Of a stretch of DNA of 64,000 bases, positions 51,172-57,377 are shown in pieces. How positions within the stretch are numbered: the first letter of the stretch is position 1; every line of letters starts with the position of its first letter. The DNA is taken from assembly GCA_003208885.1 (NCBI GenBank), contig QCUP01000002.1, positions 1-64,000 of the forward strand. The letters run 5' to 3'. The DNA comes from Prochlorococcus sp. AG-679-K21 (lineage in GTDB: Bacteria; Cyanobacteriota; Cyanobacteriia; PCC-6307; Cyanobiaceae). A program made the translations under genes and the position numbers. The notes under the pieces were generated by a model. It had not been told where the DNA came from, searched no databases, and was given only the letters and a program-made list of their open reading frames with translations.

Positions 51172-52227
51172 GTGGAAAAAGAGGCGTTAATAATTGATGA
51201 TCTTTATCATAAATATGATAATCAAAAATATTCTAATTGGATATTAAATGCAATTAACTTAAAAATTGAAAATGGAGAATTACTTGGACTTCTTGGACCT
51301 TCTGGTTGCGGTAAAACTACTCTCCTAAGATTGATAGCAGGATTTGAATATCCATTTAAAGGAAGGATTATTTTAAATGAAAGGGAAATTTCAAACAAAA
51401 ATAAGATACTTACTCCAGAGAAAAGAAAGATAGGAATGGTTTTCCAGGATTATGCACTTTTCCCACACCTTAATGTTCTAGAAAATGCAATGTTTGGTTT
51501 GAAAGATAAAAAGAACAAATCTAGAGTAAATTTTCTTATAGATATTGTTGGTCTCAATAAATTTATAAATAGATATCCACATGAATTATCAGGAGGACAA
51601 AAACAGAGACTTGCTATTGCTAGAGCGTTGGCTCCGGGAACAGATTTCATATTATTAGATGAACCATTTTGTAGTTTAGATATGCACGTAAAATTAAAAT
51701 TAAGAAGTGAACTTCCAAATATTCTTAAAAGTTGTAATGCTAGTGGATTAATGGTTACTCATGATCCAGAAGAAGCAATGTCTATTTGCAATAAAGTTGC
51801 AGTAATGAATGAAGGGAAAATACATCAAATTGATGAACCTATTAAACTTTTAGAAGATCCTAAAACACTTTTTGTAAGTAGTTTTATTCTTGGTAATAAC
51901 ATTCTTAATCTCAAAAAAAATTCTAATTCTTTCTCCTGTTGTTTAGGTAAAATAAGTACTTCTTCAATTAATAATAAAAATATTAAATTTATTTCTATTT
52001 CTCCGAAATTTATTTCTATTGAAAGATCTTTAAATGGGGATGCAAGGATAGTTTCAAAAGAATTCCTGGGTGAATATTTTATTTATAAACTATTGTTTAA
52101 AGAAGAAACATTAAGGGTTAGAACTAACATAAATCAAGATCTTAATGTCGGAGATAATTGTTTTTTAAGTTTAGATAAAGATTGTTTCGGTTTTGTATAC
52201 CCTGGAGCCCATAAGATATTTATTTAA
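51172..52227 (+). CDS. ABC transporter ATP-binding protein, iron(III) type (FutC-like)
   Basis: GPSGCGKTTLLRLIAGFE, MVFQDYALFPHLNV, LSGGQKQRLAIARALAP, LLDEPFCSLD, TOBE-like tail. Confidence 0.8.
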   Translation: MEKEALIIDDLYHKYDNQKYSNWILNAINLKIENGELLGLLGPSGCGKTTLLRLIAGFEYPFKGRIILNEREISNKNKILTPEKRKIGMVFQDYALFPHLNVLENAMFGLKDKKNKSRVNFLIDIVGLNKFINRYPHELSGGQKQRLAIARALAPGTDFILLDEPFCSLDMHVKLKLRSELPNILKSCNASGLMVTHDPEEAMSICNKVAVMNEGKIHQIDEPIKLLEDPKTLFVSSFILGNNILNLKKNSNSFSCCLGKISTSSINNKNIKFISISPKFISIERSLNGDARIVSKEFLGEYFIYKLLFKEETLRVRTNINQDLNVGDNCFLSLDKDCFGFVYPGAHKIFI

Positions 52228-52465: not shown

Positions 52466-53026
52466 ATGACAATGATTGAGAATAATTTAAAAACAAACAA
52501 ATTAATTAATTTTGGCCCTTCTGGAAGAGCTGTTGCACAGCCGATGGATGCTGGATTATTGGAAAATTTCTATGAACATTTAACAATGGAGAGATATGCC
52601 AATGTTCAATATTTTTCTATTTATTTATGGTTTCAAGAAAGAGATTTAGACGGCTTTGCTTCATATTTCTTAAGTGAATCTCAAGGAGAAATGGAACACG
52701 CCTATAAATTTGCTAATTACTTTATAGCTCGTGGACAAACTGTAAAATTGAATAATTTACCTGCACCAATTCAGGCTTGGGATTCTATTGAGGATTTAAT
52801 ATCTTATTCATTCAATATGGAGGCTGATTTAACTTCTTCATTACAACAGTTATATTCGATTGCAGAGAGAATTTCAGATACAAGAACAAATGTTTTCTTA
52901 GACCCGATTGTTGATGCTCAAACAAAATCTGAGGATGAATTTGCTCACATACTAGGGAAAGTTAAATTTGCGGCCAACCAACCTTCCGCAATATTATTGA
53001 TTGATAGTGATTTAAAGAAAAAATAA
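52466..53026 (+). CDS. ftn: non-heme ferritin
   Basis: ENFYEHLTMERYANVQYFSIYLWFQERDLDGFASYFLSESQGEMEHAYKFANYF. Confidence 0.93.
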   Translation: MTMIENNLKTNKLINFGPSGRAVAQPMDAGLLENFYEHLTMERYANVQYFSIYLWFQERDLDGFASYFLSESQGEMEHAYKFANYFIARGQTVKLNNLPAPIQAWDSIEDLISYSFNMEADLTSSLQQLYSIAERISDTRTNVFLDPIVDAQTKSEDEFAHILGKVKFAANQPSAILLIDSDLKKK

Positions 53027-53310: not shown

Positions 53311-53898
53311 TTAGAGTGGTGAGGCTTCAATAAAAGAAGGAGCTACACTTACTGTTTGTGTTCCGATTGGAGCTATTAATAACTCTGATGAGCGGAGCTT
53401 TGAAATTAATCTTGTAGATGTTACCCGTGTTGAACCTATCAATTCTCCGATCCTTTCATGAGTCAGTCTAAAAGGTAATTCGCACCATTGACCGCATCTC
53501 CTCCCGAGACGGTTCACTAATATTGAAAATAGAGCTTGAAGTCTTTGCTCTGCATTCCCTAGATGTCTGATTCTTAAAAGTTGAAGAGTCCATTCATTAA
53601 CAGCGTCAAATCCTGAGTTTTCAGCAATATGAACATTACTATGAAAGGATAAATCAGTTAAAGCTTCTACACAAACTCCTTCACTGCATAATAAATCAGT
53701 TCTTAATTGATCTCCAGATTGTAAGAAAGCAAGAGTCATTCCTTCTGTTTCTTCACATGGGCAATATACTCTTGCAATACCACTCTCAACCTCAAGACAG
53801 GTTCCCTTTGGTCTTGATGATGGATCTATAAGAACTGACTGACCTGTTATTATTCGAACTGTTTTTGATGAAAACTCTCCATAATTATGGAAATTCAT
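53311..53898 (-). CDS. cysteine-rich Crp/Fnr-family transcriptional regulator
   Basis: HTH segment LPFRLTHERIGELIGSTRVTSTRLISKL; cNMP-like N-terminus; YCPC, LLCSEGVC, RRCGQWC. Confidence 0.85.
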   Translation of the reverse strand: MNFHNYGEFSSKTVRIITGQSVLIDPSSRPKGTCLEVESGIARVYCPCEETEGMTLAFLQSGDQLRTDLLCSEGVCVEALTDLSFHSNVHIAENSGFDAVNEWTLQLLRIRHLGNAEQRLQALFSILVNRLGRRCGQWCELPFRLTHERIGELIGSTRVTSTRLISKLRSSELLIAPIGTQTVSVAPSFIEASPL

Positions 53899-54055: not shown

Positions 54056-54247
54056 ATGAGCTCTAATAAAATCTGTTTAAATTGCGGTAGTTCCGATCTT
54101 GTCTCTGACAGATCATTGGGAGGTAGGATGGTCTGCTTTAAATGTGGTTCCTCTTCATTTAAAAATAAATCTTTTACACTTATCCAAAACAAAAAGATTC
54201 TTTATTTGTTAATTGCCTTAGTTGTTCTAATCATTGTGCTTCTCTAG
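54056..54247 (+). CDS. zinc-ribbon plus single-TM small protein
   Basis: CLNCGSS(x14)MVCFKCGSSSF then LYLLIALVVLIIVLL. Confidence 0.7.
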   Translation: MSSNKICLNCGSSDLVSDRSLGGRMVCFKCGSSSFKNKSFTLIQNKKILYLLIALVVLIIVLL

Positions 54248-55028
54248 TTTTTCTATAAATATGCCAATAGCCTTTATATTTAATAACATCGATATTGATA
54301 TCAAATAAAATACTTAAATTTTTGCTATTTAAAGTTTCACTTTGCGTTCCATCTGCAATTATCATTCTGTCTTTTAACATTATTATCCTGTTGTATATCT
54401 CTGTAATGATTGATACATCATGAGTTATGCAAATTATTTTTGTATTTAATTTAGTTAACTTACTAATTTGATCTGTTACAAAAAATTTTGATTTTAAATC
54501 TAAATTAGCAATTGGTTCATCTAGTATTAAGATCTCTGGATTTTTAACTAAAGCTCTTGCAATTAGAACAATTTGTTTTTCACCTTCAGATAAATGAGAA
54601 AAAATTCTATGAGATAAATTTGTTAATAACATCTTATTTATGAGATTTTCTGCCAAATATATATCCTTTTCAGATTTATGGGATATTTTGCCATACTTCC
54701 CATATAAGCCACTAATAATTAAATCAAATACCGTTGTGTTTTTATTTATTCTTGCCTTAACATCGTAATTTACTGTACTAATCTTTTTTCTAAGTTCCCA
54801 AATATTAATAAGTTCTTTATTAAATAGTTTAAAAACTGTATCTTTCTTTAAAACTGGATATATGTTTCTATTTATTAATTCTAATAAAGATGATTTTCCT
54901 GAGCCATTAGGTCCAATCAAAATTACATTTTCACTATATTTAAGTTTTAAATTTAAATTTTTAACAACCTCATATTCATTTTTAAAGCAACTAATATTTT
55001 TTGCTTCAAGCCAACAGTCATTAGTCAC
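54231..55028 (-). CDS. ABC transporter ATP-binding protein
   Basis: GPNGSGKSSLLELI, LSEGEKQIVLIARAL, ILILDEPIANLD; GTG start. Confidence 0.85.
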   Translation of the reverse strand: MTNDCWLEAKNISCFKNEYEVVKNLNLKLKYSENVILIGPNGSGKSSLLELINRNIYPVLKKDTVFKLFNKELINIWELRKKISTVNYDVKARINKNTTVFDLIISGLYGKYGKISHKSEKDIYLAENLINKMLLTNLSHRIFSHLSEGEKQIVLIARALVKNPEILILDEPIANLDLKSKFFVTDQISKLTKLNTKIICITHDVSIITEIYNRIIMLKDRMIIADGTQSETLNSKNLSILFDINIDVIKYKGYWHIYRKTREAQ

Positions 55029-55129
55029 TAAAATTTGTTACTCCAGAATGTGAATAACTGTATTGAGCTAAGAACGAATATTAAAAGATAAAGCCAATTA
55101 AGCCAAGCGGGTCGATCAACTTTTTTCAT
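55028..55129 (-). CDS. 33-aa single-TM peptide
   Basis: MKKVDRPAWLNWLYLLIFVLSSIQLFTFWSNKF; its TAG overlaps the ABC GTG start by 1 nt and it begins 5 nt after the Rieske stop. Confidence 0.6.
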   Translation of the reverse strand: MKKVDRPAWLNWLYLLIFVLSSIQLFTFWSNKF

Positions 55130-55134
55130 ATAAA

Positions 55135-56457
55135 TTATATTATGAGCAACAAAAGCAAAAGTGGTGCTGCATATCTTATAAATGTTTTTCTTATTATGTT
55201 TATATTATTAATAACTTCCAATTTCTTGATTTCTGGAGGATATTTGAAAATTATCTCATCATAAACATTTAGTTCCTTATTTTTGTTTATGTGTTTCCAA
55301 GGAGTATCCTTTTCTTCAGATCTCTTATACCAGTTCCAGAAATAATTTATTATTCTGTCTTCACCTAGTAATTTTATCTCGTCATTTTTAATTAAGCCTA
55401 ATTTTTGATTATAAGTTTGGGTTTTAAGAATCATATAATCCTCATCAAATATTTTATAAAAAATCTTTTTTTGAATCTCTTTAAATAATATTAAGTTATT
55501 AAGAAATTTGTTTTTAAGGAATTTCCTATAATGTCTCACAATTACTCTCGCTTTATTATCTCCTAAGGGAATATGATCAAGGACTTGCACGTATCGAGAA
55601 ACAGCTGGATCTCCTTTATAGATTAAAATCCTTCCGGGTGGAATATACTTTATTCTTATAAATTCTTTTGTTGGATTGTTTTTATAGAAATATATACTCT
55701 CAATATATTTTGGATTGATATTTATTTTTTGATTAAAACTTACGAGTACATTTTTATTTACATCTTTGTCTGGAATTGTATCTCCATGCACCCAAAATAT
55801 ATGAAGAATATCCAAATGATTTTCGATAATTCTTGACCAATCACATTTAAAATCAACTAATACCTCTTCCGATACGGAGTCTCTAAAAGAAAATCCATTA
55901 GCATTTAATTCATAATTACTGATTAATGAATCATGGTTAAAATTATTTAAATCTGTCTCTGACTTGTCAGTAAAATAGATAAAAATATAATTATCCTTCT
56001 CTAGTGCCTTGTATTGAGATAAGTGAATTCTCTTTGCATAATTATCATAATTATTATCAACTATATGACTACAAGTTATCCTATCTATGTTTTGACAATT
56101 TCCTTGAGAACTGAATCTTGCTCCATGGTATGGGCATGTTAATTCACCATTAGAAATTGAACCTCCATAAAATGAGGAGCCTCTATGAGGGCATATGTTT
56201 TTTATACATCTAATATTATTTTTCTTATCTCTAAAAAGAAGAAGAGGTTCATCAAACAATGAGAAATAATGAATCTTATTTTTTTGAAGCTCCTTTGAAG
56301 GACAAATTGCATACCAACCATATAAACCTAATTTTAATTCATTTTGCTTTTCTCTTACCTCTAAATTATCGATATTAACGACAGTTCCTTTTTTAAAAGG
56401 TTTTAAAACCGTATTAATGTCTTTAGCTTTAAAAAAATTAATTTGCTTATTTTCCAT
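55135..56457 (-). CDS. Rieske [2Fe-2S] oxygenase, pheophorbide a oxygenase/chlorophyllide oxygenase-like, C-terminal TM
   Basis: NICPHRGSSFYGGSISNGELTCPYHGARF Rieske motif; NHLDILHIFWVHGD mononuclear-iron-like motif; YAAPLLLLLLII C-terminus. Confidence 0.85.
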   Translation of the reverse strand: MENKQINFFKAKDINTVLKPFKKGTVVNIDNLEVREKQNELKLGLYGWYAICPSKELQKNKIHYFSLFDEPLLLFRDKKNNIRCIKNICPHRGSSFYGGSISNGELTCPYHGARFSSQGNCQNIDRITCSHIVDNNYDNYAKRIHLSQYKALEKDNYIFIYFTDKSETDLNNFNHDSLISNYELNANGFSFRDSVSEEVLVDFKCDWSRIIENHLDILHIFWVHGDTIPDKDVNKNVLVSFNQKININPKYIESIYFYKNNPTKEFIRIKYIPPGRILIYKGDPAVSRYVQVLDHIPLGDNKARVIVRHYRKFLKNKFLNNLILFKEIQKKIFYKIFDEDYMILKTQTYNQKLGLIKNDEIKLLGEDRIINYFWNWYKRSEEKDTPWKHINKNKELNVYDEIIFKYPPEIKKLEVINNINIIRKTFIRYAAPLLLLLLII

Positions 56458-56822: not shown

Positions 56823-57167
56823 ATGATAAAAAATTTTTTGAATTTTCTAATATTATTTCTTTTATTGATATTCGGAAATCCAGCTTATCCTGATGACTTT
56901 TCAGCAAAGGCTGTTGAAAAATATACTTTAAAAATTTCGAGGAAGTTTGCGAATACTTATTGTAATTCTACTAAATTTGGTATTTCTAAAGATGGCGCTT
57001 TGAAATTTTCAATAGGAGAGACAAATAAAGAATTTTCAAATAATAGATTAAATAAATTCATCGACTTTGAACTACTTAATAAAAATATCATTTTAAGCCT
57101 TGAAAATAATTGCCAGATAATCGACTTTCCAGAATATGAATTAGACAAATTAACATTCAAAAATTAA
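56823..57167 (+). CDS. hypothetical exported protein
   Basis: 114 aa; signal peptide NFLNFLILFLLLIFGNPAYPDDFSAKAVEKY. Confidence 0.65.
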   Translation: MIKNFLNFLILFLLLIFGNPAYPDDFSAKAVEKYTLKISRKFANTYCNSTKFGISKDGALKFSIGETNKEFSNNRLNKFIDFELLNKNIILSLENNCQIIDFPEYELDKLTFKN

Positions 57168-57194: not shown

Positions 57195-57377
57195 TTATTT
57201 TCTTCCTATCCAATCATTTGGCTTCTCCATCATCCAGTCAAAAACACCCTTTGCATCAAGATTTTTAGAGGCAATTATGAATAATATTGGGAATAACAAC
57301 AATACTATTCCAATTACAAATAATTCTAATTTCCCTATTCCAATTTCTTTAAATGTTAAAGCAAAAGTTTCAATCAT
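57195..57377 (-). CDS. small single-TM hypothetical protein
   Basis: MIETFALTFKEIGIGKLELFVIGIVLLLFPILFIIASKNLDAKGVFDWMMEKPNDWIGRK. Confidence 0.65.
   Translation of the reverse strand: MIETFALTFKEIGIGKLELFVIGIVLLLFPILFIIASKNLDAKGVFDWMMEKPNDWIGRK

Follow-up and report, generated by a model that had tools for sequence, protein, structure and literature searches.

A compact Prochlorococcus gene unit of a Rieske oxygenase, almost certainly chlorophyllide a oxygenase, an apparently undescribed Cyanobiaceae microprotein and a ModF-like ABC ATPase

The DNA analysed here, called the window below, is a stretch of 64,000 nucleotides from Prochlorococcus sp. AG-679-K21, whose genome is available as a partial assembly (66% complete). 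On its minus strand it carries a unit of three genes, in the order Rieske oxygenase, 33-aa putative membrane peptide and ABC ATPase, together with a neighbourhood that is conserved in Prochlorococcus (nth, FutC-like ATPase, ferritin, Crp, zinc ribbon, ATPase and chlorophyllide a oxygenase, CAO). The features concerned are as follows.

51172-52227, plus strand: FutC/FbpC-like ATPase of the ferric/phosphonate/polyamine ABC importer type, of another class than the ATPase at 54231-55028
52466-53026, plus strand: ferritin (Pfam Ferritin, 1.3e-27; conserved synteny)
53311-53898, minus strand: Crp-family regulator, PtrA-like but scoring far below the NCBIfam cut-off (Pfam and NCBIfam, synteny)
54056-54247, plus strand: 63-aa protein with a zinc ribbon and a predicted TM segment (Pfam Zn_Ribbon_TF at 1.7e-4, which does not reach the curated cut-off), a convergent neighbour of the ATPase gene kept across Prochlorococcus
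54231-55028, minus strand: ModF-like single-domain ABC ATPase of 265 aa, with a GTG start at 55028
55028-55129, minus strand: 33-aa microprotein with a single predicted TM segment, ATG at 55129 and TAG at 55030-55028, pattern RPxWLNWxxLxIFxxSSWxLxxFW
55135-56457, minus strand: Rieske oxygenase of 440 aa, most likely PcCao, ATG to TAA, with a hydrophobic C-terminal tail (Pfam Rieske, 5.5e-22)

The layout described in an earlier note on this DNA proved exact when its coordinates were confirmed in the sequence: the stop codon of the Rieske gene is separated from the ATG of the 33-aa peptide by 5 nt (55134-55130), and the TAG of the peptide shares 1 nt, at 55028, with the GTG of the ATPase (TAGTG). 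The conservation of these junctions was also checked, and they are retained across named Prochlorococcus contigs, especially in the HL clades; in the 77 contigs matched by pattern, the gap between CAO stop and peptide start measures 2-6 nt, and 66 of them retain the 1-nt overlap of stop and start codons. That the genes form a compact unit is confirmed, its tight junctions being conserved in the HL clades. The 2-6 nt gap and the TAGTG overlap probably give rise to translational coupling, and the retention of tight junctions in HL genomes suggests that some selection for co-expression probably exists. An Rfam search of the locus found no RNA element, a promoter scan gave no score above that of shuffled sequences, and the one terminator-like site detected lies on the other strand. 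Upstream of the CAO gene, two proteins of 114 aa (56823-57167, plus strand) and 60 aa (57195-57377, minus strand) are conserved in close relatives and have no Pfam or NCBIfam match.

The strain and clade labels of relatives used here (MED4, SS120, MIT9313, NATL2A, MIT9211, HL, LLIV) are presumptive assignments made from genome size. Satoh and Tanaka are said to have described the Prochlorococcus chlorophyllide a oxygenase, PcCao, in 2006, and the earlier note suspected the Rieske protein of the unit to be a CAO. The Rieske ligand motif C-x-H-x16-C-x2-H is found at residue 89 (CPHRGSSFYGGSISNGELTCPYH), within the general form C-x-H-x(15-17)-C-x2-H, and a mononuclear iron motif D-x2-H-x4-H at residue 216 (DILHIFWVH). 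In an alignment of 16 Prochlorococcus sequences the four Rieske ligand positions as well as D216, H219 and H224 are invariant, and the hydrophobic C-terminal tail is present in most of them. Strong matches to the protein (46-94% identity) occurred in genomes of Prochlorococcus size only among the 251 family genomes searched; no CAO was found there in the larger Synechococcus/Cyanobium genomes, which gave only distant Rieske matches with E above 1e-16. The best 80 named records comprise 79 from Prochlorococcus and one from Synechococcaceae. In the complete MED4-, SS120-, MIT9313-, NATL2A- and MIT9211-like genomes, the sole other Rieske protein is a short one of the PetC type. On the strength of this distribution, of the motifs and of its being the only Rieske oxygenase besides PetC, the protein is, by elimination, almost certainly PcCao; the earlier suspicion was right as far as can be judged from sequence. 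Among the complete genomes of the set, that of the closest relative (1,657,990 bp), which we take to be MED4, encodes a Rieske protein 94% identical to that of the window. The annotation of MED4 lists PMM0808 as a Rieske protein (PMC9606707), and our literature search found no paper equating this gene with PcCao.

The distribution of the microprotein was followed with a first profile built from 13 Prochlorococcus copies and with a wider one of 27 sequences. The 13-copy profile detected the peptide in all 150 genomes of the order draw, including 149/149 near-complete ones, with E of about 1e-20 to 1e-12. A broader draw, with many metagenome assemblies, contained 167 near-complete genomes; 161 of these gave a match with E no higher than 1, which in some cases was only weak. 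Four genomes of that draw belong to genus g44; three of these (G080, 98% complete, G105 and G125) gave no match, and the fourth (G044, 95% complete) matched at E = 1 only. This genus is apparently devoid of the peptide, which is therefore nearly, not strictly, universal. With the 27-sequence profile and a class draw of 194 genomes, full-length matches are confined to the family Cyanobiaceae, and outside it only four partial matches appeared, at E of 0.003 or higher.

The peptide is not a chance open reading frame and is under purifying selection, since synonymous divergence far exceeds non-synonymous divergence (dN 0.025 and dS 0.18 between the window and the MED4-like relative; pS 0.88-0.95 versus pN of about 0.10 between the window and other HL genomes) and the frame is intact in 80/80 named Prochlorococcus contigs. 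We looked there for the disruptions that would have spoken against the gene and found none: 77 contigs matched by pattern and three on inspection, two of the latter having frames that start with TTG. Hydropathy fits one membrane helix, although several members of the family score only modestly.

Profile searches with the peptide returned no credible match in Pfam, NCBIfam, PHROG or PDB, and none of the named small subunits of the photosystems, b6f or NDH-1 in PDB or NCBIfam matches it. The Pfam hits were isolated matches of single members, which we judged spurious, among them a holin match of one member at 2.9e-4. A PDB profile match to PI3K consisted of 12 residues of chance similarity and vanished with the wider profile. 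A phage origin was discarded as well: no phage record matched, viral contigs yielded one irrelevant match of 10 residues, and PHROG matches were weak. The idea of a partner specific to CAO was likewise rejected, as the peptide occurs in genomes that have no CAO. It forms a core family of the Cyanobiaceae, older and wider than CAO and apparently undescribed. Most likely it would serve in a membrane complex, as one of the small subunits. We propose more tentatively, granting that the odds are somewhat against so specific a reading, that the 33-37 aa peptide may belong, as a small subunit so far undescribed, to a central complex of the thylakoid or cell membrane; the peptide would have arisen at the base of the Cyanobiaceae and persisted in nearly all marine picocyanobacteria.

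The ATPase carries the motifs of its class, namely Walker A (GPNGSGKSS), the signature (LSEGEKQ), Walker B (ILILDEP) and the H-loop (THD). Orthologs, scoring 283-370 bits as against about 117 at most for paralogs, were found in 22 of the 25 Cyanobiaceae tested and not in G045, G062 and G052; in five other cyanobacteria the scores were at best of paralog level. The Q-loop glutamine normally couples an ABC ATPase to its permease. In the protein of the window it is replaced by tyrosine, and most orthologs have S, T, N or K at this position, Gln being kept in a few, in a motif comparison that left out several Synechococcus rows. In five other Prochlorococcus lineages (rows L043, L044, L047, L049 and L050 of the comparison), the H-loop histidine is replaced by asparagine. 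The earlier note had remarked on an ATPase with no permease in sight, and this holds: in the loci examined, from Prochlorococcus and from Synechococcus, the gene has no conserved permease as a neighbour. A MntB/ZnuB-like permease, recognised by eye in the Synechococcus locus L149, was rejected as a partner, being on the opposite strand and not conserved. The simplest reading is that the protein would be a stand-alone ATPase; a permease partner may also be located elsewhere in the genome. With its Q-loop glutamine usually lost, this ATPase is a candidate non-transport ABC ATPase.

The arrangement of the three genes varies across lineages. The order CAO-peptide-ATPase occurs in HL, SS120-like and MIT9211-like genomes; isiB, recognised from sequence, lies between peptide and ATPase in several deep lineages; in NATL-like genomes and G003 the peptide is absent from the CAO locus and located elsewhere; and in MIT9313-like (LLIV) genomes the three genes are apart, for example at 845014 (CAO), 876383 (peptide) and 714999 (ATPase) in G071. 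At four loci (L036, L037, L038 and L052) isiB stands 3' of the peptide, ahead of the ATPase where the latter is present. On a tree of the Rieske protein these four arrangements require ten changes, fewer than in shuffles and far from a single event each. The LLIV-like genome G098 has two strong CAO-like matches (G098:C5:11153-12367 and G098:C17:24-1190), each with 47% identity to the query. One of the copies adjoins the ATPase gene in divergent orientation, so the pairing of CAO and ATPase could predate its assumed age.

The earlier note took the three genes for an unusual functional set that could act in chlorophyll/tetrapyrrole or iron handling. The tight coupling and the permease-less ATPase stand; a dedicated set is not supported, as peptide and ATPase are present in Synechococcus/Cyanobium genomes without CAO, the genes are split or the peptide has moved in LLIV and NATL-like genomes, and the complete genome G052 has CAO and peptide and no ATPase. 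The reading that we favour, and consider fairly probable, is that in most lineages of Prochlorococcus three independently inherited genes came together as a single compact unit, by compaction rather than for a shared task. It builds on the observed sequences, their distribution, the selection on the peptide and the gene order. The site of this compaction would be next to a cluster of iron-related genes (ferritin, Crp regulator, FutC-like ATPase); the three genes, presumably co-transcribed, would not serve one biochemical task. PcCao would take electrons, presumably from ferredoxin, via its [2Fe-2S] cluster to the mononuclear iron and, by oxidation, convert the C7 methyl of (divinyl) chlorophyllide a into a formyl group, leading to chlorophyll b; its hydrophobic C-terminal tail may hold it at the thylakoid. 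The peptide would be an older core protein of the Cyanobiaceae, probably a small protein that crosses the membrane once and acts as subunit or modulator in a membrane complex that has nothing to do with chlorophyll b. The ModF-like, stand-alone ATPase is likely active on ATP and would lack coupling to a permease of its own.

Two readings would instead give the neighbours a common task. The better placed of them, which we nevertheless consider improbable, is an iron-economy unit, in which CAO (itself an iron enzyme), isiB in deep lineages, ferritin, the Crp regulator and the FutC-like ATPase would be co-regulated by iron, with peptide and ATPase acting in iron or Fe-S handling. It draws on the conserved neighbourhood with the last three of these genes, on several lineages in which isiB separates the peptide from the ATPase, and on LLIV, where the peptide precedes an isiB gene of the same strand (as at locus L098). 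However, in the Synechococcus/Cyanobium loci examined the ATPase and the peptide are not beside iron genes, and the titles and abstracts read mention no iron-response data for these genes. Still less likely would be a dedicated chlorophyll b or tetrapyrrole module, in which the peptide would anchor CAO to the thylakoid or regulate it there, and the ATPase would drive delivery of substrate or cofactor to CAO. The short conserved junctions in HL contigs, the recurrence of the same gene order in the SS120-like and MIT9211-like lineages, and a hydrophobic CAO tail that could pair with the TM peptide are what such a module would predict, but CAO-less genomes retain peptide and ATPase, NATL-like and LLIV genomes keep the peptide elsewhere, and G052 lost the ATPase and still has CAO. 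The wider distribution of peptide and ATPase and these repeated separations argue against a machine dedicated to chlorophyll b.

That the peptide replaces PetL, a cytochrome b6f subunit which the Pfam model misses in Cyanobiaceae (0/10, versus 4/5 other cyanobacteria, with a PetN control of 15/15), is highly improbable and largely refuted, since a cyanobacterial PetL profile finds a separate, divergent PetL-like protein of 30 aa in several Cyanobiaceae, and other cyanobacteria without a Pfam PetL match also have no peptide. This divergent ORF is seen at L278 (G152:C1:107397-107480, minus strand), L277, L280, L282, L283 and L287, and in the MED4-like genome it reads MNIIFYFAFLGFGFGAAFLLDKLLRAVKLI.

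As the gene for chlorophyll b synthesis is already known, the trio by itself changes little; CAO is the known part and the microprotein family the new one. Marine picocyanobacteria are the most abundant phototrophs on Earth, and the microprotein, which belongs to no described family and is easily missed by annotation, may matter as a core gene that defines the lineage of Prochlorococcus and Synechococcus. It is also a simple target for work that aims to uncover an as yet unrecognised component of a membrane complex.

Each member of the unit can be set beside known systems. The small single-pass subunits (PetN, PetL, and the Psb and Psa peptides) resemble the microprotein in their 30-40 aa, their one hydrophobic stretch and their status as core genes of a lineage; it differs from them in having no credible sequence match to any of them and in its restriction to the Cyanobiaceae. 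For the ATPase, the best NCBIfam model is ModF, at 135 bits versus a cut-off of 459 bits, and hhalign aligns it with the C-terminal domain of E. coli ModF over 224 columns with a probability of 99.8%. The ATP-binding domain is thus shared and the Q-loop glutamine is replaced in both, but the protein has one domain where E. coli ModF has two, and it is not an equivalog in the sense of NF008186, which covers proteins with two ATP-binding domains scoring above 459 bits. The Rieske protein falls below the Pfam PaO cut-off (PF08417, 18.6 versus a gathering score of 27 bits). With PaO, and with the CAO of plants, Prochlorothrix and Prochloron, it shares the enzyme class, the CAO reaction being probably the same. 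With PcCao, as reportedly described, it has in common the Rieske and mononuclear iron motifs, the Prochlorococcus-specific distribution and the position of only Rieske oxygenase in the genome.
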